Both the position numbers and the translations under genes were made by a program. Shown piece after piece: positions 14,475 to 23,571 of a DNA stretch of 64,000 bases. The first letter of the stretch is position 1; every line of letters begins with the position of its first letter. Under the pieces are notes generated by a model that was not told the DNA's origin, searched no databases, and was given only the letters and a program-made list of their open reading frames with translations. Source of the stretch: Tessaracoccus lapidicaptus (GTDB lineage Bacteria; Actinomycetota; Actinomycetes; Propionibacteriales; Propionibacteriaceae); assembly GCF_001693815.1 (NCBI RefSeq), contig NZ_MBQD01000001.1, positions 1 to 64,000 of the forward strand. Reading direction: 5' to 3'.

Positions 14475-15350
14475 TCAGAGCCGGCCGGCGGCCAGGCTGC
14501 GGTGGAGCAGTGCGGCGGCCTCCGCGAGGCGGTCCGGCAGCGGGTGGGCGCCATCGACGGCGTCGCGCAGCGATCCCCCGACCCACACCGACAGCGGCGG
14601 CGAGACCCGGCGCAGCGCGTCGATCAGCTCCTGCGTGACGGGCAGCGTGGTCGTCGCCGTGACGCCGACGACGGCGGCCCGGGCACGACTCCGCTCGGCG
14701 GCCAGCACCCACTCGCCGGTCGGGATGTCGGACCCCAGGTAGACCACCTCGACGCCGCGGCGCCGCAGGCAGGTGGCGAAGCAGAGCAGGGCGAGCTGGT
14801 GCCGGTCGCCGGCCGGGAGCCCCACGAGGACGGCCGGACCGCCCGCCGTCGCCGGGGCGGCGTCGAAGACCGCCGCGACGGCGCGCATCAGCCCCGCGCT
14901 CGCGAAGTGTTCCTGGGCGACGGACAGCTCGCCGCTCTCCCACGCCTGTCCGAGCCGCACGAGCTGCGGGAGTATCCAGTCGTCGGCCACCTCCTCGAAC
15001 GGCCCGCTGGCGAGCGCACGGCCGAGCACGTCCGCCAGTGCCGCAGGTTCGAGCGACGCGGCGGCGGCGACGAACTCGGACCCGTCTGGCCGCGCCGACA
15101 CGGCGCCGACGTCCTCCGGGGCCGCGGGCATCGCGGTGAGTTCCGCGACGCTGGCGGCGGCACGCGATGCAGGCACCCCCGCCTCGACCAGCGCGGCCAT
15201 CTCCCGTAGCACCGCAAGCTGGGCGTCGTCGTAGAGGCGGTACCCGCCGGACGACCGCACGGGGCGCACGACCTCGTAGCGGCGCTCCCAGACCCGGAGT
15301 GTCGCCTCAGCGACCCCGGTGAGGGCAGCCACCTGCTTGACTGTGTACAT
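14475..15350 (-). CDS. CarH/LitR-type MerR regulator with B12-binding photosensory domain
   Basis: 291 aa. An N-terminal MerR winged helix (YTVKQVAALTG, LRVWERRYEVVRP, GGYRLYDD; residues 1-70), a helical B12-capping domain with the W-x9-EH signature (Trp137, Glu147-His148), and a cobalamin-binding Rossmann domain with D182-R183-H184, where His184 is the expected lower axial ligand, followed by GVEVVYLGSD. CarH proteins bind promoters as tetramers in the dark with adenosylcobalamin and release on illumination. The residue after Trp137 is Glu138, whereas Thermus CarH has His132 there. GGGAG lies 8 nt upstream of ATG 15350; an upstream in-frame ATG lacks spacing. It is divergent from the carotenoid genes it probably represses. 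Confidence 0.85.
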   Translation of the reverse strand: MYTVKQVAALTGVAEATLRVWERRYEVVRPVRSSGGYRLYDDAQLAVLREMAALVEAGVPASRAAASVAELTAMPAAPEDVGAVSARPDGSEFVAAAASLEPAALADVLGRALASGPFEEVADDWILPQLVRLGQAWESGELSVAQEHFASAGLMRAVAAVFDAAPATAGGPAVLVGLPAGDRHQLALLCFATCLRRRGVEVVYLGSDIPTGEWVLAAERSRARAAVVGVTATTTLPVTQELIDALRRVSPPLSVWVGGSLRDAVDGAHPLPDRLAEAAALLHRSLAAGRL

Positions 15351-15390
15351 CGCTTCATCTCCCGCCGACATCGCACACCGTAGCAAACCC

Positions 15391-15468
15391 TGGACAAACC
15401 TTCGTCACATCTTGCCTCATCGCAATCGCCCCGCTAAGGTCGTTCCAAGGTTCGACAAACATTGGACA
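15391..15468. promoter_or_regulatory. Divergent carH/idi promoter region with TNNACA repeats
   Basis: TCGACA at 15452 and TGGACA at 15463 are exactly 11 bp apart. A further TGGACA lies at 15391, with a weaker TCGTCA 11 bp later. From memory, CarH tetramers read 11-bp direct repeats of type TNNACA. A sigma-A-like promoter for the isomerase/synthase gene is visible: TTGCCT (15412-15417), 17-bp spacer, TAAGGT (15435-15440), placing the paired repeats just after the transcription start. TGGACA at 15391 lies close to a possible -10 of carH on the other strand (TACGGT, 15382-15377), suggesting autoregulation. Confidence 0.6.
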
Positions 15469-15473
15469 CAGCC

Positions 15474-17135
15474 ATGATCGCAGACCGACACCGCGAGGCG
15501 GCCCCGCCGGCCGCCGGGGAGCCCGACGACGTCGTGCTCCTCGCCGAGGACGGCACCCCCATCGGGCGTGCGGACCGCATGCAGGTGCACACCACCGACA
15601 CCCCACTCCACCTCGCCTTCTCGACGTACGTGTTCAACGCACGCGGCGAGGTCCTGGTCACGCGCCGGGCGCTGGCCAAGAAAACCTGGCCCGGGGTGTG
15701 GACCAACTCATGCTGCGGCCACCCCAAGCCCGGGGAGTCGCTGGAGGACGCGGCCCGGCGCCGGATCCGCGAGGAGCTGGGGCTGCACGTCGGCCCGCTC
15801 ACCCCCCTCGTGCCCGACTTCCGCTACCGGGCCACCGACGCCTCGGGCATCGTCGAGAACGAGATCTGCCCGGTGTTCGCGGCCTTCGTCCCCGACGAGC
15901 AGCCGACGCCAGACCCGGGCGAGGTCGCGGAGTGGATGTGGGTGCCGTGGGAGAAGCTCGCGGACGCCATCACCGCGACCCCGCACGTCTACAGCCCCTG
16001 GGCGGCGCTCCAGGTGCCGCTCATCGCCGCCGGCCACCCGGACGCCGCGTGGCGCGCCACGCCCCCGTCGGTGGACGTCGGCTCCGCCATCGGCGACGTC
16101 GATGCGCTGCTCACCGCGGAGCTGGAGTCGCTGGCCATCGAGTGGCGCGAGTACGCCGGCGACTTGGGCCTCGACGTCCTGCCCGCCGACCTCCCCCGTT
16201 GGCTCGGCTCGCTGCTGGTCGGCCACGGCAAGCGGCTCCGCGTCGCCCTGGCCTACTGGGGCTTCATCGCCGCGGGCGGTGTGCACGGCTCGACCGGCTA
16301 CCGCAACCTCGTCCGCGTCGCGGCCTCCCTCGAGACGCTGCACCTCTTCGCGCTCATCCACGACGACGTCATGGACGAGTCGGACTCGCGCCGCGGCCGC
16401 CCGTCCGCGCACCGTCAGGCCGCCCGGTGGCATCGCTCCGCCACCGCCTTCGGCGACCGCGAGGTGTTCGGCCGCAACCTCGCCATCCTGCTCGGCGACC
16501 TCGCCCACACCATGGCGGACCGGCTCGTCGACGGGCTACCGCAGCCCCTGCGCGACCTCTGGTACGTGCTCTCGGTGGAACTCATCGCCGGGCAGCGGGC
16601 GGACCTCACCGGAGCGGCAGCCGCGCGCCGCGACCGGGGCCACGCCGAGTACATCGCCCGCGCCAAGACCGGCCGCTACACCGTCGCCAGGCCGCTGCAG
16701 CTGGGCGCGACCGCGGCCGGCGCCACCGCGAAGGCGGTCGCGACGCTCCTCGAGTGCGGCGACCACCTCGGCCGCGCGTTCGCCCTGCGCGACGAGTACC
16801 TCGGCGTCTGGGGAGATCCCGACATCACGGGCAAGCCCGCCGGCGACGACCTCAGCGAGGCCAAGGCCACCGTGCTGCTGTCGCTGGCCGGCGACCGGCT
16901 CACGGGGGCAGGCGCCGAACTCGTCGCCCGAGTCGGCACTCCGGCGTTCGGCCGCGACGACGTCGCACCCCTCGCCGACGCCATGCGCGCCGCAGGCGTG
17001 GCCGACGAGCTGGAGGCCATGATCGCCGACGCCGTCGCCGAGGGACTCGCCTGCCTCGACACCCTGCCCCTCACCGCGGCCGGCGTCACCGGCCTCCGCG
17101 ACACCGCCCACTCACTCGCCTGGAGGGACGCCTGA
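15474..17135 (+). CDS. Fused isopentenyl-diphosphate isomerase (type I) and polyprenyl (GGPP) diphosphate synthase
   Basis: 553 aa in one uninterrupted frame. Residues 1-180 are a type I Idi: metal-binding His pair in HTTDTPLHLAF, the catalytic Cys in WTNSCCGHPKPGESLEDAAR with the Nudix-like helix, and GIVENEICPVF. Residues about 195-553 are an all-helical trans-prenyltransferase: first Asp-rich motif IHDDVMDESDSRRGR, and second region FALRDEYLGVWGDPDITGKP, where the usual DD is DE. One protein would make DMAPP and then elongate to (G)GPP for carotenoids. ATG 15474 was chosen, with only a weak GGA upstream. The CrtI ATG overlaps the stop codon. Confidence 0.85.
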   Translation: MIADRHREAAPPAAGEPDDVVLLAEDGTPIGRADRMQVHTTDTPLHLAFSTYVFNARGEVLVTRRALAKKTWPGVWTNSCCGHPKPGESLEDAARRRIREELGLHVGPLTPLVPDFRYRATDASGIVENEICPVFAAFVPDEQPTPDPGEVAEWMWVPWEKLADAITATPHVYSPWAALQVPLIAAGHPDAAWRATPPSVDVGSAIGDVDALLTAELESLAIEWREYAGDLGLDVLPADLPRWLGSLLVGHGKRLRVALAYWGFIAAGGVHGSTGYRNLVRVAASLETLHLFALIHDDVMDESDSRRGRPSAHRQAARWHRSATAFGDREVFGRNLAILLGDLAHTMADRLVDGLPQPLRDLWYVLSVELIAGQRADLTGAAAARRDRGHAEYIARAKTGRYTVARPLQLGATAAGATAKAVATLLECGDHLGRAFALRDEYLGVWGDPDITGKPAGDDLSEAKATVLLSLAGDRLTGAGAELVARVGTPAFGRDDVAPLADAMRAAGVADELEAMIADAVAEGLACLDTLPLTAAGVTGLRDTAHSLAWRDA

Positions 17136-18637
17136 TGCGTCGACCCGCACCCCGCGCCACCACCCCCCGCACCGTCGCCGTCGTCGGCGCGGGCCTGTCC
17201 GGCCTCGCCGCCGCGCTGCACCTCGCCGGCGCCGGGCATCGCGTCACCGTCCTCGAGCGCGAGGCCATCCCCGGCGGGCGGAACGGCTCGCTCGAGAAGG
17301 ACGGCTTCCGCTTCGACACCGGCCCCACCGTGTTCACGATGGTGTCGCTGCTCGAGGAGGCGTTCGCCGCCGTCGGCCGTCGCGTGTCGGACTACGTGAC
17401 GCTGCAACTGCTCGACCCGGCCTACCACGCGCACTTCGCCGACGGCTCGACGCTGCTCGTCCGGCCCGGTCACGAGGCGATGCGCGAGGAGATCCTCGCC
17501 CAGAGCGGCGCGAAGGACGCCGCCGCCTTCGACCGGTTCGTCGACTGGCTCAAGCGCCTCAACGACGTCGAGCTGCCGCACTTCATCGACGCGAACTTCA
17601 ACTCCCCGCTCAGCCTGTTCCGCTCACCGCGGGCCGCGCTCGAGCTGGTCCGGCTCGGGGGCTTCGGCCGCCTCGGCCCCACCGTCGCGCGCCGCTTCGA
17701 CGACGAGCGCCTGCACCGCGTGTTCAGCTTCCAGGCCATGTACGCCGGGCTCGCGCCCGCACAGGCGCTGGCCCTGTACGCCGTCATCACGTACATGGAT
17801 TCGATCGAGGGCGTCTTCTTCCCTGAGGGGGGCATGCACGCGGTCCCGCGCGCCATGGCCGCCGCGGCCACCGACGCGGGCGTCGAGATCCGCTACTCCA
17901 GCCCGGTGGACCGGGTGGAGCGTCGCGGCGACGGGTCGGCGTCGGGCGTGCGGCTGGCTGACGGCTCGCTCGTCCCCGCGGACGCCGTCGTCGTCACCGC
18001 CGACCTGCCCGTGGCCTATGAGCGTCTACTCCCCGGCCTGCCGGCGCCCCGGGTGGCGCGCCACGGGAAGTACTCGCCCAGCGCGCTGGTCTGGCACGTC
18101 GGGGTGAAGGGTGACCTCCCCCAGGGGGTCGGCCACCACAACATCTACTTCGGGCGCGCCTGGGACGAGTCGTTCCGCGAGCTGCTCGACGACGGGGTGG
18201 CGATGACGGACCCGTCGCGGTTCCTGTCCGTGCCGTCCCTGGACGACCCGGCGGCCGCCCCGGCCGGGCACCACACGCTGTACTACCTCGAACCGGTGCC
18301 GAACCTGCACGTCGGGCGGATGGACTGGGCGACGGAGGGGCCGCGGCTGCGCGAGCGCATGCTCGGCACGCTCGACCGGCTGGGCTACCCCACCGACATC
18401 GTGACGGAGGAGCTCGTCACGCCCGTCGACTGGGAGCGGCAGGGCATGGCGGCCGGCACGCCCTTCGCGCTCGCCCACACCTTCCCGCAGACGGGCCCGT
18501 TCCGCCCCCGCAACGTGGACCGTCGCGTCCCGGGCCTGGTGTTCGCCGGCTCGGGAACCACCCCCGGTGTCGGGATCCCCATGGTCCTGGTGTCCGGCAA
18601 GCTGGCCGCCGCCCGCGTCGCGGAGCTGGGCCGATGA
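17135..18637 (+). CDS. crtI: Phytoene desaturase CrtI
   Basis: 500 aa, an FAD-dependent desaturase that introduces double bonds into phytoene at the membrane, usually to lycopene in this branch. The N-terminal FAD motif is VVGAGLSGLAAALHLAGAG with RNGSLEKDGFRFDTGPT; FFPEGGMHAVPRAM lies mid-protein; the C-terminal signature GLVFAGSGTTPGVGIPMVL is typical of bacterial CrtI. Its ATG overlaps the upstream stop codon by 1 nt (TGATG), with GGAGGGA placed inside the end of the upstream gene. It overlaps crtB by 4 nt (ATGA). Confidence 0.93.
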   Translation: MRRPAPRATTPRTVAVVGAGLSGLAAALHLAGAGHRVTVLEREAIPGGRNGSLEKDGFRFDTGPTVFTMVSLLEEAFAAVGRRVSDYVTLQLLDPAYHAHFADGSTLLVRPGHEAMREEILAQSGAKDAAAFDRFVDWLKRLNDVELPHFIDANFNSPLSLFRSPRAALELVRLGGFGRLGPTVARRFDDERLHRVFSFQAMYAGLAPAQALALYAVITYMDSIEGVFFPEGGMHAVPRAMAAAATDAGVEIRYSSPVDRVERRGDGSASGVRLADGSLVPADAVVVTADLPVAYERLLPGLPAPRVARHGKYSPSALVWHVGVKGDLPQGVGHHNIYFGRAWDESFRELLDDGVAMTDPSRFLSVPSLDDPAAAPAGHHTLYYLEPVPNLHVGRMDWATEGPRLRERMLGTLDRLGYPTDIVTEELVTPVDWERQGMAAGTPFALAHTFPQTGPFRPRNVDRRVPGLVFAGSGTTPGVGIPMVLVSGKLAAARVAELGR

Positions 18638-19518
18638 GCGCGGCCCAGGAGGCGGGGTACCGGCGCTGCGCGCAGCTCACCCGCGACTACGGCACCACGT
18701 ACTACTGGGGCGCGCGGCTCCTGCCCCAGCAGCAGCGCCGCGACGTCTACACCGTCTACGCCCTGTGCCGCCTCGCCGACGACATCGTCGACGAGCCCGA
18801 GAAGGTGCAGACCGAGGACTGCGCCGTCCCGCGCGACGGCACGTCGGCCGAGCGGCTGGAGGCGTTCCGGCACACGTTCTTCGACGCGCTGGCCCGCGGC
18901 GAGGTCGAGCAGCCGGTCATGTCCGCCATCGTCGAGGGCATCGGGCGCCGCGGCACGGACCCCGAGTGCTTCGAGCGCTTCTTCGACGCGATGGCCGCGG
19001 ACCTCACCACCTCGTCGTGGGCCACCTGGTCGGACCTCCGCGACGGCTACATGGAGGGGTCGGCCGCCGTCATCGGCGAGATGATGCTGCCCGTCCTGGA
19101 GCCCTACACGCAGGACGCCAAGGAACCCGCCCGGGCGCTCGGCCACGCGTTCCAGCTCACGAACTTCCTCCGCGACGTCGACGAGGACCTCGACCGCGGG
19201 CGCGTCTACCTGCCGCAGGAGGATCTCGCCCGGCACGGGGTCGACCCGTGGGAACGCCGGGTGACGCCGCAGTGGCAGGCCATGATGGCCGAACAGGTGG
19301 CCCGCAACCGGGCCCTGTATGCCGAGGCCCTGCCGGGGCTCGACATGCTGCCCCCCGCATCGCGGCGCTGCGTCGGAACGGCCCTGGTGCTGTACCGGCG
19401 GATCCTCGACCGGATCGAGGACGCCGGGTACGACGTGTTCCACGGCCGCATCCGGGTGCCGGGCCGGGAGAAGGCCGCCGTGACGCTGCGCGCGCTCAGC
19501 GGCTCCCTGCCCGTCTAG
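18634..19518 (+). CDS. crtB: Phytoene synthase CrtB
   Basis: 294 aa, a squalene/phytoene synthase family enzyme that condenses two GGPP into phytoene. Both Asp-rich motifs are present: CRLADDIVDEPEK near residue 50 and FQLTNFLRDVDEDLDRGRVY (about 170-189), followed by LPQEDLARHG. Last gene of the plus-strand arm (fusion synthase-crtI-crtB), with starts overlapping throughout, so one operon. Only 6 bp separate it from the convergent crtU-like gene. Confidence 0.93.
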   Translation: MSAAQEAGYRRCAQLTRDYGTTYYWGARLLPQQQRRDVYTVYALCRLADDIVDEPEKVQTEDCAVPRDGTSAERLEAFRHTFFDALARGEVEQPVMSAIVEGIGRRGTDPECFERFFDAMAADLTTSSWATWSDLRDGYMEGSAAVIGEMMLPVLEPYTQDAKEPARALGHAFQLTNFLRDVDEDLDRGRVYLPQEDLARHGVDPWERRVTPQWQAMMAEQVARNRALYAEALPGLDMLPPASRRCVGTALVLYRRILDRIEDAGYDVFHGRIRVPGREKAAVTLRALSGSLPV

Positions 19519-19524
19519 TCCCGG

Positions 19525-21027
19525 TCAGCGGGCCAGGATGCCCGTCATCGGCACGGTCCAGAGGTCATGCCCCTGGGCGCCCCAGCCCTCCAGCAGCGCG
19601 TTGGCGGCGACGAAGCCGGTGGTCGCGGCGCGCTCCATGAGCGCCACCGGGTAGTCGCACCGCACCCAGTCCCCCGCCAGCACCAGGCGGGGCGACGGAG
19701 TGCGGACACCGGGCCGGTCCATCCAGCGCTGCGGGCCGATCAGCGTGCAGTCGTCGCGCACCAGCACCTCGCGGTGGGCGACGCCGGCCGTCCTGGTCTC
19801 GGGGAAGATCCGGTGCAACTCGCTCTCGAGCCGCTCCACGACGGCGTCGCGGGCGGCGCCGTCGGTGGCCACTTCGGGCGCGCAGGCGTAGGCGTGCAGC
19901 TCCACGACCGAGCCGCCGTTGGCCTCAGCCCACCGCGCGGCGCCGGCCTCGAACCGCTCCAGCACCGACACGTTGTCCAGCGGACCGTAGCCGGAGGTGC
20001 CGACGAAGGCCGGTCGTTCGGCATCCACCGGCCGGTCCAGCCACAGGCGCACGACGACGAACGGCGGCGCGTTGACCGTCCCCGCCACGCGACGCTGCCA
20101 GCCGCCCAGCCCGGAGCCGCCCAGCTCGCCGATGAGGGCCCGGCTGCTGCGCGGGTCGGTGGCGAGCACGACGGCGTCCGCGTCGAGCTGCTCGCCGTCG
20201 ACGACGACGCAGGCGGACCCCTGGGCCAGTCCGATGGACTCGACGGTGCGGCCGAGCTGCACGTCCACGCCCAGGCCGGCCACGTGCCGGCCGAGCGGCG
20301 CCCACAGGGCGGTGTCGTAGTCGTCGTCGGGCACGTCGAACAGCAGCCCCTCGGCCGAGCCCATGAAGTAGGTGTGGAACATGGCGACGAGCTCCCCTGC
20401 GGCGAACTCCTTCGGGTCTGCGAAGAAGGAGCGGGCGAAGACCTCCAGCGCGAGGTCGCGGGCGTCCGGCGGGAAGCGGAGGCGGTCGAGGAACTGGGCG
20501 GCGGACTCGCCGTCGTAGGCGGAGTAGGTGTCGGGGAACCGGACGCGCAGCAGTTCCAGCGCGGCCGCCACGTCGACCTTGGCCAGCGAGCCCAGGGTAA
20601 AGGAGGGGCTGCGCAGCACGAACTGCATGACGGACCAGGGTGGGGTGGTCGCCAGCCCGGTGAAGGAGTCCCGCAGGCCGTCGGGGCGCTGGAGCGGGTA
20701 GTCCTCGATCGGCACGAGGAACCCGAGCTGCGGATCGATCCGCGCGAGCAGCCCGCGCAGGTTGTAGTACTGGCGGAAGAAGGCATGGAAACCGCGGCTC
20801 ATGGTGCGGCCGTCGTCCAGCGGCCAAGCGGCCACCCTGCCGCCGAGGCGATCCCCGGACTCCAGCAGCGTGACCCCCACCCCGCGCTCCGCGAGCGCCG
20901 TGGCGGCCGTCAGGCCCGCGATTCCCCCACCGACCACCAGCGCCGTGCGGGGGTCCCGCACGCGCGGCGTTCCGGAGGGGCCGCGATGTCGGACGGCGCG
21001 GCGGTCTCGGCCGGGGTACTGGCTCAT
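19525..21027 (-). CDS. crtU: CrtU-like carotenoid desaturase/methyltransferase (aryl-carotenoid synthase family)
   Basis: 500 aa, FAD-dependent: ALVVGGGIAGLTAATALAE at the N-terminus and LVLAGDWVRCDYPVALMERA near the C-terminus. MSRGFHAFFRQYYNLRGLL and ARSFFADPKEFAAGEL are characteristic of actinobacterial CrtU, which converts beta-ionone rings to aromatic rings (isorenieratene). The natural substrate needs a lycopene cyclase, which is not in this window. ATG 21027 overlaps the methyltransferase stop (ATGA). Last gene of the minus-strand operon. The assignment is by motif; a related desaturase role (CrtD-like) is the main alternative. Confidence 0.8.
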   Translation of the reverse strand: MSQYPGRDRRAVRHRGPSGTPRVRDPRTALVVGGGIAGLTAATALAERGVGVTLLESGDRLGGRVAAWPLDDGRTMSRGFHAFFRQYYNLRGLLARIDPQLGFLVPIEDYPLQRPDGLRDSFTGLATTPPWSVMQFVLRSPSFTLGSLAKVDVAAALELLRVRFPDTYSAYDGESAAQFLDRLRFPPDARDLALEVFARSFFADPKEFAAGELVAMFHTYFMGSAEGLLFDVPDDDYDTALWAPLGRHVAGLGVDVQLGRTVESIGLAQGSACVVVDGEQLDADAVVLATDPRSSRALIGELGGSGLGGWQRRVAGTVNAPPFVVVRLWLDRPVDAERPAFVGTSGYGPLDNVSVLERFEAGAARWAEANGGSVVELHAYACAPEVATDGAARDAVVERLESELHRIFPETRTAGVAHREVLVRDDCTLIGPQRWMDRPGVRTPSPRLVLAGDWVRCDYPVALMERAATTGFVAANALLEGWGAQGHDLWTVPMTGILAR

Positions 21028-21749
21028 GCGTGCTCCTCGGGCTTGTGGGCGACGAAGGTGTGGAGGATGCCGCGCTGCCACCCGGCGGCGGTGCGGTGGG
21101 CGATGTCGACGAAGCCGGCGGCGGCGAGCCGCTGCATGAACCGGTCGACGGAATCGAAGTCGTGGACGCTGCGGCGCAGGTAGCGGTAGAGCTCCGGGCC
21201 GCCGTCGAGCACCGACCCGAGCGGGATGATCACGCCGCGGCTGACGGCGTCCCAGACGAAGGCGGCCGCCGGGTCCCCCGCGACGGAGTACTCCTGCACG
21301 ACGAGCCAGCCGCCCGGCCTGAGGAGCGCGAACACCTCCGCCACGGCCCGGTCCCGGTCCCCCTCCGGCACGTTGCGGAAGAGGTAGCAGGTCAGGATGC
21401 CGTCGCGGCCCCCGTCGATGCGGTCGAGGTCGATCTCGCCGGCCCGTGCCTGGTCGAACGTGACGCGACGCGGCCAGTGCTTGGCCCGTGCCTGAGCCAG
21501 CATCCCGCGCGACGCGTCGAGGCCGTGGATCTCGGTGCCAGGCGGCGACGCGCTGAGCAGCGCCTGGGTCGACGCCCCGGACCCACAGGCGAGATCCAGC
21601 AGCCGCAGCCCTTCCCGGTCACCGAGCCGGCCGATCAGCGCCTCCGCGGCGCGGCGCAGCTCGCGGTGGTAACCCGGGTTGAGCGCCACCAGCAGGTCGT
21701 AGCGCTTGGCCCCCCGGTCGAACGCCTGAGTCAGAAGGTCGTCGATCAT
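21024..21749 (-). CDS. Class I SAM-dependent methyltransferase (CrtT-like)
   Basis: 241 aa. SAM-binding motif I is LRLLDLACGSGASTQAL, with the acidic loop EIHGLDASRGML and RPGGWLVVQEY after it; the protein begins LTQAFDRGAKRYD, like UbiE/CrtT-type enzymes. In Streptomyces carotenoid clusters a methyltransferase crtT sits beside crtU, and the same neighbour relation holds here. The substrate is unknown. It overlaps the NAD-binding protein gene upstream and crtU downstream by 4 nt each. Confidence 0.72.
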   Translation of the reverse strand: MIDDLLTQAFDRGAKRYDLLVALNPGYHRELRRAAEALIGRLGDREGLRLLDLACGSGASTQALLSASPPGTEIHGLDASRGMLAQARAKHWPRRVTFDQARAGEIDLDRIDGGRDGILTCYLFRNVPEGDRDRAVAEVFALLRPGGWLVVQEYSVAGDPAAAFVWDAVSRGVIIPLGSVLDGGPELYRYLRRSVHDFDSVDRFMQRLAAAGFVDIAHRTAAGWQRGILHTFVAHKPEEHA

Positions 21750-22789
21750 GCGGCTTTCCCCCTTCGCCGATCGCGCACGAGCCTAGCGATGGTGACCGAC
21801 AGGATTGTGGAGACCACAGCCAAACCGGCCGAGAGGCCGAAGGCCGCGACGCCGCCGCGCAGCGTCCGGCTCCACCAGTGCGGATCGATGCCGGCCGTGG
21901 CGCGCCGGACGGCCTCGTCGAACCCGACGGTGCCGCCGGGCGGCTCCCCGAGCAGGGCGCGGGCGTCGTCGTCGTCCTTGACGGCGTCGTGGATGAGGCT
22001 GCCGACCAGCGGCCGGGCGATCCCGGCGTCCACGGGGGTCACCAGGCCCACCCAGTGCGACGCGAGGCCCGGAGTGAGGACCGGCAGAGTCCAGATGTGC
22101 CGCGGGCGCAGGCCGGTCACCTGGGCGTAGCGGCGCATCATGTCGATGTAGGTCATGCGCTCGTCCATGCCGACGTCGATGGTGCGGTTGACCTCGGGTG
22201 GCAGGTCGGCGGCGCTGCGCAGGTAGAACAGCACGTCGTCGACGGCGATGGGCTGAATGCGGTTGCGCAGCCAGCGCGGCCCCACCGCCACCGGCAGCCG
22301 CTCGGTGAGGTGGCGCAGCATGTCGAACGAGGCCGAGCCGGCGCCCAACACCACGCCCGCCTGCAGCACGGCCGTCGGCACCCCGGAGCCCAGGAGGATC
22401 TCCCCGACCTCGACACGGGAAGCCAGGTGGTCCGACAGCGGGCCGCGCGGGTGGAGCCCACTGAGGTAGACGATCCGGCCGACGGCGGCGTCCCGGGCGG
22501 CCTCGGCGAACGTGGCCGCCAGTTCCCGGTCCCGGGCTCGGTAGTCGCCCTTGCCGTCCATGGAGTGGAGCAGGTAGTACGCGACGTCGGCGCCCGTGAG
22601 GGCCCGCACGACGTCGGCGAAGTCTCCCGCGTCGCCGGTGACCACCTCGACGCGGTCCCGCCAGGCGGGGTCGAGCTTGTGCGGCGACCGGGCGAGCACG
22701 CGGACGTGCCAGCCGTCGTCGAGGAGGACGGGTGCGAGCGCGGCGCCGATGTATCCGGTGGCGCCGGTGACGAGTGCGGTGCGGGGCAC
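21746..22789 (-). CDS. NAD(P)-binding atypical SDR with C-terminal membrane anchor
   Basis: 347 aa. An N-terminal Rossmann motif TALVTGATGYIGAALAP and an NmrA/epimerase-like body (AYYLLHSMDGKGDY; VYLSGLHPRG; QAGVVLGAGSAS). A C-terminal single transmembrane segment (VAAFGLSAGLAVVSTILSV) is followed by basic residues, so it is probably tethered to the membrane where carotenoids reside. GTG 22789 was chosen because GGGAGG lies 5 nt upstream and the Rossmann motif follows directly. Its role within the carotenoid operon is inferred from position only. Confidence 0.75.
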   Translation of the reverse strand: MPRTALVTGATGYIGAALAPVLLDDGWHVRVLARSPHKLDPAWRDRVEVVTGDAGDFADVVRALTGADVAYYLLHSMDGKGDYRARDRELAATFAEAARDAAVGRIVYLSGLHPRGPLSDHLASRVEVGEILLGSGVPTAVLQAGVVLGAGSASFDMLRHLTERLPVAVGPRWLRNRIQPIAVDDVLFYLRSAADLPPEVNRTIDVGMDERMTYIDMMRRYAQVTGLRPRHIWTLPVLTPGLASHWVGLVTPVDAGIARPLVGSLIHDAVKDDDDARALLGEPPGGTVGFDEAVRRATAGIDPHWWSRTLRGGVAAFGLSAGLAVVSTILSVTIARLVRDRRRGKAA

Positions 22790-22790
22790 G

Positions 22791-23513
22791 TCAGCCTCCC
22801 AGGGCGAGCGTTGGCGGCAATAGGAACAGCATGCCGAGTGACCAAGTGAGATGTGAGGCAATCGGCCCGAGGACACCGCCGGTGACTCGGCGTTGCGCGG
22901 CAGTGAGCAGTCCGAGGCAGATCGCGGCGAAGGTCAGCAGGGGGACGCCGGTGAACAGCGTCGAGGCGGCGTACAGGGCGGTGGAGCCGATGCCGTTGAC
23001 GCTGCGCGGCAGCGACGCGTAGACCGCACCGCGGAAGAACAGTTCCTCTGCGATCCCGTTGACCGCCGTGATGAGCGCCACGACCCACAGGGAGCCGAAG
23101 CGCGCGTGGTCGAGGAGGTCGTCGACGGGCCCGGCCAGGAGCGGGATCCGGTCCACCACGAGGGCTCCGGCGAGGAAGACCCCCAGCAGCATGAGGCCGA
23201 GCAGCACGCCTTGGACGACGCCGCGGCTGCGGCCGCCGTCGCGCGCGCGCCCCTCCCCCAGATACAGCGGGCCCGACGCCAGCGCCCCCACGACCCACAG
23301 CGCGGCGACGCCCACGGTGGCCAGGTAGAACTCGCTCTGGCCCGGCGGAATCGCCAGCGCGAACCCCAGGGCCACCGCCCCGGCGACGATCGTCAGGGCG
23401 ACGACGACGCGCCGCCGCAGCCGCTGGCCGGGGGTCTCGACCCGGGTGCGCTCCACGGGGTGCAGCAGCGCGGCGGCCAGGAACGCGCGCGGCTCGGCGA
23501 GGAATCGTCGCAT
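22791..23513 (-). CDS. CPBP (CAAX-protease/bacteriocin-processing) family membrane protein
   Basis: 240 aa, with six to eight membrane segments. The CPBP motif 1 is seen in ITAVNGIAEELFFRGAVYAS (paired Glu and Arg) and later motifs in ASTLFTGVPLLTFAAICLGL and IASHLTWS (His). Members are intramembrane glutamic proteases or catalytically altered relatives. GGAAGGAG lies 5 nt before ATG 23513. First gene of the minus-strand carotenoid operon, under a promoter with the same TNNACA repeats as the isomerase/synthase gene. Its link to carotenoids is not understood. Confidence 0.75.
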   Translation of the reverse strand: MRRFLAEPRAFLAAALLHPVERTRVETPGQRLRRRVVVALTIVAGAVALGFALAIPPGQSEFYLATVGVAALWVVGALASGPLYLGEGRARDGGRSRGVVQGVLLGLMLLGVFLAGALVVDRIPLLAGPVDDLLDHARFGSLWVVALITAVNGIAEELFFRGAVYASLPRSVNGIGSTALYAASTLFTGVPLLTFAAICLGLLTAAQRRVTGGVLGPIASHLTWSLGMLFLLPPTLALGG

Positions 23514-23542
23514 GCCGCTCCTTCCCGTCGCCGTCAACCGTC

Positions 23543-23571
23543 AGCCTAAAGGTTAGACAAACCTAAGACAA
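23543..23571 (-). promoter_or_regulatory. Promoter of the minus-strand carotenoid operon with CarH-type repeats
   Basis: Minus-strand -35 TTGTCT (23571-23566), a 17-bp spacer and -10 TAGGCT (23548-23543), giving a start about 23 nt before ATG 23513. On the plus strand GACA occurs at 23556 and 23567, exactly 11 bp apart (TAGACA, AAGACA), covering the -35 and spacer. The core (AAGGTT, one base, GACAAAC, spacing, GACA) is nearly identical to the block at 15447-15468. Confidence 0.6.

Follow-up and report, generated by a model that had tools for sequence, protein, structure and literature searches.

The window analyzed here, a 64,000-nucleotide stretch of the Tessaracoccus lapidicaptus genome (contig NZ_MBQD01000001.1, positions 1 to 64,000 of the forward strand), contains carotenoid genes in two arms and, beside them, the gene of a CarH-type B12-dependent regulator (carH). 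Three sites built of tandem repeats lie on the promoters of carH and of the two arms (Table 1). Very probably, this is a light switch in which the regulator, loaded with adenosylcobalamin, would act as a dark repressor on the tandem repeats, shutting off the carotenoid genes and carH, and would be released by light, inducing both arms, carH and at least one distant gene.

The proposed mechanism is as follows. In the dark, the adenosylcobalamin-loaded regulator would bind tandem 11-base pair (bp) direct repeats of the form AAnnTTnnACA. The bound repeats would cover the -35 box and spacer at carH and arm 2, and the transcription start at idi-crtE, shutting off carotenoid synthesis and carH itself. 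Green or blue light would break the Co-C bond of the cofactor and the regulator would leave the DNA. Its release would co-induce idi-crtE, crtI and crtB, the arm encoding the CPBP protein, SDR protein, methyltransferase and oxidase, carH, and at least one distant TspO/MBR-like gene. We infer that the regulator binds these sites, that it represses and does not activate, that it responds to light and that its targets are then induced. The dark-repressor mode is favored because of the placement of the operators and because it is the known mode of CarH (PMC9304148, PMC10442372; the papers cited by accession are drawn on through excerpts).

What the sequences themselves show is the family of the regulator, the residues of its cofactor site, and the operators with their promoter positions and their conservation. 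Three Pfam domains match the regulator above cut-off: MerR (PF13411/PF00376), B12-binding_2 (PF02607) and B12-binding (PF02310). Its top matches among solved structures are 3whp (E 3.7e-29) and CarH 5c8d (E 4.5e-29). The published signature of light-responsive B12 domains consists of GxxW, EH, GxxH and GxxxP (PMC11796333), and all four elements are found, as GQAW, EH, GDRH and GSDIP. An initial annotation, made from the letters of the window, had reported a regulator with MerR, W-x9-EH and B12-binding features beside carotenoid genes; the Pfam domains, W137 and E147-H148 confirm it, and the cobalt-ligand-type residue is His184. The regulator is thus very likely, by its domains and residues, a CarH-type B12 light sensor of known kind. 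No second such regulator was found in the same genome at an E-value of 0.001, and at a looser limit the sole other match had E 0.0097. The adenosyltransferase family PF01923 has two matches above cut-off in this genome.

Both repeat pairs given in the initial annotation, TCGACA 15452 with TGGACA 15463 and TAGACA 23554 with AAGACA 23565, are present exactly 11 bp apart, and its two promoters, TTGCCT-17-TAAGGT and TTGTCT-17-TAGGCT, have the boxes and spacings described. The claim that the same TNNACA operator occurs in both arms holds as far as the 11-bp pairs are concerned; the second unit at arm 2, AAGACA, deviates by one base, and the window holds one strict TNNACA-N5-TNNACA pair, at 15452. 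The surrounding blocks, which had been called nearly identical, are similar; a count by eye gives 18 identical bases out of 22. The initial annotation had overlooked a third block, operator A (15386-15407). It lies over the carH promoter and would provide a physical basis for the claimed control of the regulator's own gene. With relatives included, the repeat unit was refined to two tandem copies of AAnnTTnnACA; operator B has two clear repeats, and operators A and C each have one repeat together with degenerate ones. The known CarH operator consists of nnnnTnnACAn repeats at 11-bp spacing with degenerate members allowed (PMC9304148), and the window has three sites that fit tandem 11-bp repeats of this form, on promoters and conserved in relatives. 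The earlier claim of a single switch over both arms and its own gene is mostly supported by the domains and structure matches, the signature, the conserved operators and their co-occurrence with the regulator (below).

Sites were scored by the 14 fixed letters of AAnnTTnnACA taken twice. The top independent scores in the window are 14 (at 15447), 13 (23549) and 12 (15386), with 9 as the next below; positions scoring 11 or 10 all overlap the three top sites. When 5000 random 171-bp pieces of the window were scored, 30 exceeded 9, all through the three sites (scores of 12-14, none of 10 or 11), and pieces without these sites reached a maximum of 9. These sites themselves contributed to the motif, so the independent evidence is their conservation. 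Across the whole genome (G000; 3.09 Mb, 27 contigs), a related pattern that allowed 2 mismatches gave 5 matches and its reversed control none, the fifth match being C22:164158 with 2 mismatches. A wider pattern, allowing 3 mismatches, gave 5 places against 0 in the control: the three window sites, C24:198233-198254 and C11:359929-359950. A strict TNNACA triple was also tried as a search pattern in this genome and was dropped as too strict; it gave one unrelated match, C22:180000. In seven genomes chosen for having CarH, the wider pattern gave 46 matches as against 14 in the control, so many of the weak sites (2-3 mismatches) are chance occurrences. Such sites in single relatives were counted as regulon only if the same gene family recurred.

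The closest named relative, judged by the CarH-type regulator, is Tessaracoccus sp. MC1679 (73% identity). Fourteen carH/idi intergenic regions were aligned (G031 and G028 included; G003, G061, G015 and G060 excluded). The core of operator B, TTnnACAAAC(A/G)TT, is found by eye in every row, and the tandem operator A beside the carH start is conserved in the same alignment. A -35 TTG is present in 13 of the 14 rows and a TAnnnT box in each, again by eye. A separate scan upstream of idi gives no score for G031, G028 and G007, whose idi gene was not recognized by the text filter. At arm 2, a site with 12-14 of the 14 letters precedes an arm-2 gene in all nine CarH genomes scanned, T. lapidicaptus included; the contig of G022 stops short of arm 2. 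In G030 and G019 the arm-2 layout is preserved, with the operator and TAGGCT. In relatives with a CYP-crtYc-crtYd arm, the operator stands either before CYP (G026, G025) or between CYP and crtYc (G031, G028, G061), and none was found directly before the CYP genes of G031 and G061 (scores 6 and 7). In G003 it precedes the methyltransferase gene. Further sites were seen at G030:C17, G019:C65, G031 (659020) and G026:C1.

Co-occurrence with the regulator was evaluated in 39 genomes of the genus, in 12 of which a close CarH was found (E of 1e-78 or lower). A strict genus-wide pattern with at most one mismatch was found in nine of the 39, and its reversed control gave one match in all 39. The nine all fall among the 12 genomes with close CarH, as against 0 of the other 27 (Fisher p 1e-6, with genomes treated as independent though related). 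The three misses (G003, G028, G061) have sites of 12-13/14 at some promoters, and three of the 27 genomes (G008, G016, G029) hold more distant regulators. The crtB of G023, G010 and G027 shows 71-78% identity, and these three lack a close CarH; their idi promoters score 11, 10 and 7 of 14, and their arm-2 promoters 8, 7 and 8. The idi-promoter sites of G023 and G010 resemble eroded operators in the expected position. G015 and G060, the latter genome being 84% complete, present the converse case, with CarH and operators but no crtB match at E 1e-20. Thus, operators track the regulator, not the pigment genes.

These patterns bear on whether the repeats might be coincidental, or promoter-proximal motifs of another conserved regulator of carotenoid genes. 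A+T-rich tandem promoter motifs can arise by sharing -35-like TTGTNN. The sites, however, follow the presence of carH and not of crt genes: G060 and G015 keep sites of 12-14 letters at carH, tspO-like, MMPL, PNPOx-like (G060) and DUF1295-like (G015) genes, the G015 operator lying, by eye, between carH and the DUF1295-like open reading frame (ORF). A chance origin of the blocks is rejected on account of conservation and co-occurrence, and coincidence or another regulator, taken together, is highly improbable.

The regulator might instead be a light-dependent activator like Streptomyces LitR, with the repeats as activator sites. It is of the same broad family and phylum as that protein, and in both actinobacterial systems a MerR photoregulator of the B12 type stands next to a carotenoid cluster with two arms. 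MerR proteins often activate from between the -35 and -10 boxes, and operator A lies in that position. Operator B, however, is downstream of the -10 box, at the transcription start, which is unexpected for an activator of the MerR kind. In Streptomyces, LitR activates litS and the LitS sigma factor drives crtE (PMC12705666), whereas here the crt promoters, with recognizable -35 and -10 boxes, carry CarH-type operators themselves. An activator mode is considered quite unlikely.

The dark-repressor reading finds its closest parallels in described CarH systems. With Thermus thermophilus CarH the regulator shares the domain order, W-x9-EH and the cobalt-ligand His, and the operators share tandem 11-bp TnnACA repeats overlapping the promoter (PMC9304148). 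It differs in having Glu for His132, further conserved bases (AA and T) in the repeat AAnnTTnnACA, and several separate operators, including those on its own promoter and at distant genes. Bacillus megaterium CarH likewise has 11-bp tandem repeats, some degenerate, over the -35 or -10 box, and in the Myxococcales carH is found near rearranged carotenoid genes (both PMC9304148).

Several observations weigh against the reading as a CarH-type dark repressor. Operator A is weak (12/14); of the six genomes in which a pair of sites was found upstream of idi, G025 alone scores as low. Between carH and idi, G003 has one site instead of two, and in G061, whose carH lies apart from its crt genes, the 16 kb around carH contain no site at a threshold of 12/16 letters. 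There are two clear repeats per operator here, as against three for Thermus CarH and four for B. megaterium CarH (PMC9304148). The NCBI equivalog model for CarH, NF052513, scores 124 bits against a cut-off of 400; it is nonetheless the top NCBIfam model for the regulator. Because the model represents one curated group, the low score weakens the statement that this is the same protein as the model's CarH, and not the domain and signature match. Finally, the position of Thermus His132, next after the tryptophan, is occupied by Glu138, and the H132A mutant of Thermus CarH remains mostly tetrameric in light, with monomer formation stopped (PMC10442372, which also mentions a contrary result of an earlier study on His132 removal).

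The last point would suit a B12-dependent repressor that senses the B12 level or the adenosylcobalamin supply, with no photoresponse in cells, possibly through loss of the upper His. The loss is general among the 18 regulators compared, T. lapidicaptus included: eight have E at the equivalent position, five A, four Q and one H, leaving 17 without His. However, all four elements of the light-response signature are kept, and confirmed light-responsive B12 proteins without the upper His exist, e.g., CtMerR with Arg at this position (PMC11796333). Furthermore, the main targets are photoprotective, and in Kineosphaera limosa (L011 1854-1875) a 12/14 site lies between two ORFs whose starts, read by eye, suggest a photolyase and a protein like that of the CYP genes of relatives. 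A B12 sensor of this kind is judged unlikely. Since the upper His varies among confirmed photoreceptors, it was not treated as defining, and Glu138 is compatible with a photoreceptor because others without this His are confirmed. How the regulator is released, given Glu138, is uncertain.

The CarH regulon is probably wider than the initial annotation supposed, to judge from two strong sites outside the window. There are 16 bp between the end of the C24:198233-198254 site and the start of a 276-amino acid (aa) protein that resembles a membrane protein, and homologues of this protein have a 12-14-letter operator upstream in all seven genomes scanned (G000, G030, G019, G022, G031, G028, G060). 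Eight homologues align with it at 54-78% identity. The TspO/MBR family (PF03073, cut-off 24) matches the G060 homologue at 25.2 bits and that of G031 at 22.6 bits; the T. lapidicaptus and G030 proteins give no match. A three-unit version of the operator precedes this TspO/MBR-like gene in G030 and G019, and in G031, G028 and G060 the gene comes immediately after carH. G008 and G016 have it near the more distant carH relative, with no site at the threshold used. Among the titles and abstract beginnings listed by literature searches, no title dealt with a link between TspO and LitR or CarH.

Other gene families also recur next to operators. MMPL transporter genes have an operator upstream in four relatives, G025, G026, G022 and G060 (the sites being L109 14871, L108 2024, L133 4199 and L138 3502), and so do the PNPOx-like genes of G031 and G060; two of the MMPL and both PNPOx-like proteins were assigned by family search, the remaining MMPL proteins by likeness. 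The C11:359929-359950 site is upstream of a GH32 gene (the family was tested for the T. lapidicaptus copy), as are sites in G030 and G022. This operator is ~210 bp from the GH32 start codon, and on its other side there is, by eye, a small secreted-protein gene or remnant, which is an open ORF in G022. Given this distance and this neighbor, the GH32 gene is kept as a possible target at most. Tentatively, and with somewhat less than even confidence, we suggest that this lineage has a CarH without a bis-histidine light state (Glu, Ala or Gln for the upper His), whose ancestral role may have been that of a general photo-stress switch and not of a switch for pigment. The recurrent targets would be the TspO/MBR-like gene (beside carH or elsewhere with its own operator), MMPL and PNPOx-like genes, and the system would persist in species without a crtB match.

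The order of genes from left to right is the regulator on the minus strand, a divergent idi-crtE fusion, crtI and crtB on the plus strand, and the convergent four-gene arm 2 on the minus strand (Table 1). Arm 2 is transcribed from 23513 down to 19525 in the order CPBP protein, SDR, methyltransferase, FAD oxidase. The labels crtT and crtU for the methyltransferase and oxidase are presumed from position and from the clusters of Streptomyces. The top NCBIfam model for the oxidase is HpnE (171 bits, below the cut-off of 283).

Table 1. Genes, promoters and operators of the carH-carotenoid locus in the window
Feature	Position	Strand	Remarks
CarH-type regulator, 291 aa	14475..15350	-	MerR helix-turn-helix + B12-binding_2 + B12-binding
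carH -10-like box	15377..15382	-	TACGGT on minus strand; by eye; adjoining operator conserved
Operator A	15386..15407	+	AACCCTGGACA AACCTTCGTCA; 12/14 motif letters; over spacer/-35 side of carH promoter
idi-crtE promoter	15412..15440	+	-35 TTGCCT 15412-15417, 17 bp, -10 TAAGGT 15435-15440
Operator B	15447..15468	+	AAGGTTCGACA AACATTGGACA; 14/14; spans about +1 to +22 of predicted transcript
idi-crtE, isopentenyl-diphosphate isomerase + polyprenyl (geranylgeranyl diphosphate (GGPP)-type) synthase fusion, 553 aa	15474..17135	+	
crtI-family phytoene desaturase, 500 aa	17135..18637	+	TIGR02734, 488 bits
Squalene/phytoene synthase family, 294 aa	18634..19518	+	Family match; crtB by context
FAD-dependent amine-oxidase family protein, 500 aa	19525..21027	-	crtU by context
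UbiE-like methyltransferase, 241 aa	21024..21749	-	crtT by context
NAD(P)-binding SDR/NmrA-type protein, 347 aa	21746..22789	-	
CPBP (Rce1-like) membrane protein, 240 aa	22791..23513	-	Arm 2 gene 1
Arm-2 promoter	23543..23571	-	-35 TTGTCT 23571-23566, 17 bp, -10 TAGGCT 23548-23543
Operator C	23549..23570	+	AAGGTTAGACA AACCTAAGACA; 13/14; fills spacer + five of six -35 bases

The idi-crtE fusion is ~530-554 aa long in relatives where the gene caller read the whole ORF, including G023, G010 and G027; that of G028 was called as 399 aa with a late start. In G007, idi and crtE appear as two separate ORFs of 182 and 358 aa. A literature search on natural idi-GGPP synthase fusions found no paper.

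In arm 2, the CPBP and SDR genes (21746-23513) occupy the place of CYP-crtYc-crtYd of relatives, as they do in G030 and G019. A search of the T. lapidicaptus genome for crtYc gave no match. The lycopene cyclase is nonetheless no puzzle, since a lycopene-cyclase-type gene (PF05834) exists at C2:96345-97394 and no new cyclase is required; PF05834 is a broad family that matched 10 of 14 control genomes, E. coli included. The PF05834 gene is also found in G030, G019, G022 and G003, all without a crtYc match, and G031 has crtYc and weak PF05834 matches only. Judging from these matches, the cyclase type has apparently been swapped between relatives.

CarH control of carotenoid genes is already known, and what is new here is a member in Tessaracoccus; no title on such control in this genus was among those listed by a literature search. 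The less usual features are the operators on crt promoters, the lost upper-ligand His, the TspO-like regulon gene, and the relatives that have CarH and operators but no crtB match. B12 light sensing is connected here with a TspO-like protein. Its natural variants without His132 offer a test of how far CarH photochemistry needs bis-His ligation. The predicted conserved CarH operator (AAnnTTnnACA twice), common to one actinobacterial genus and its near kin, would make the regulon readable from genomes.

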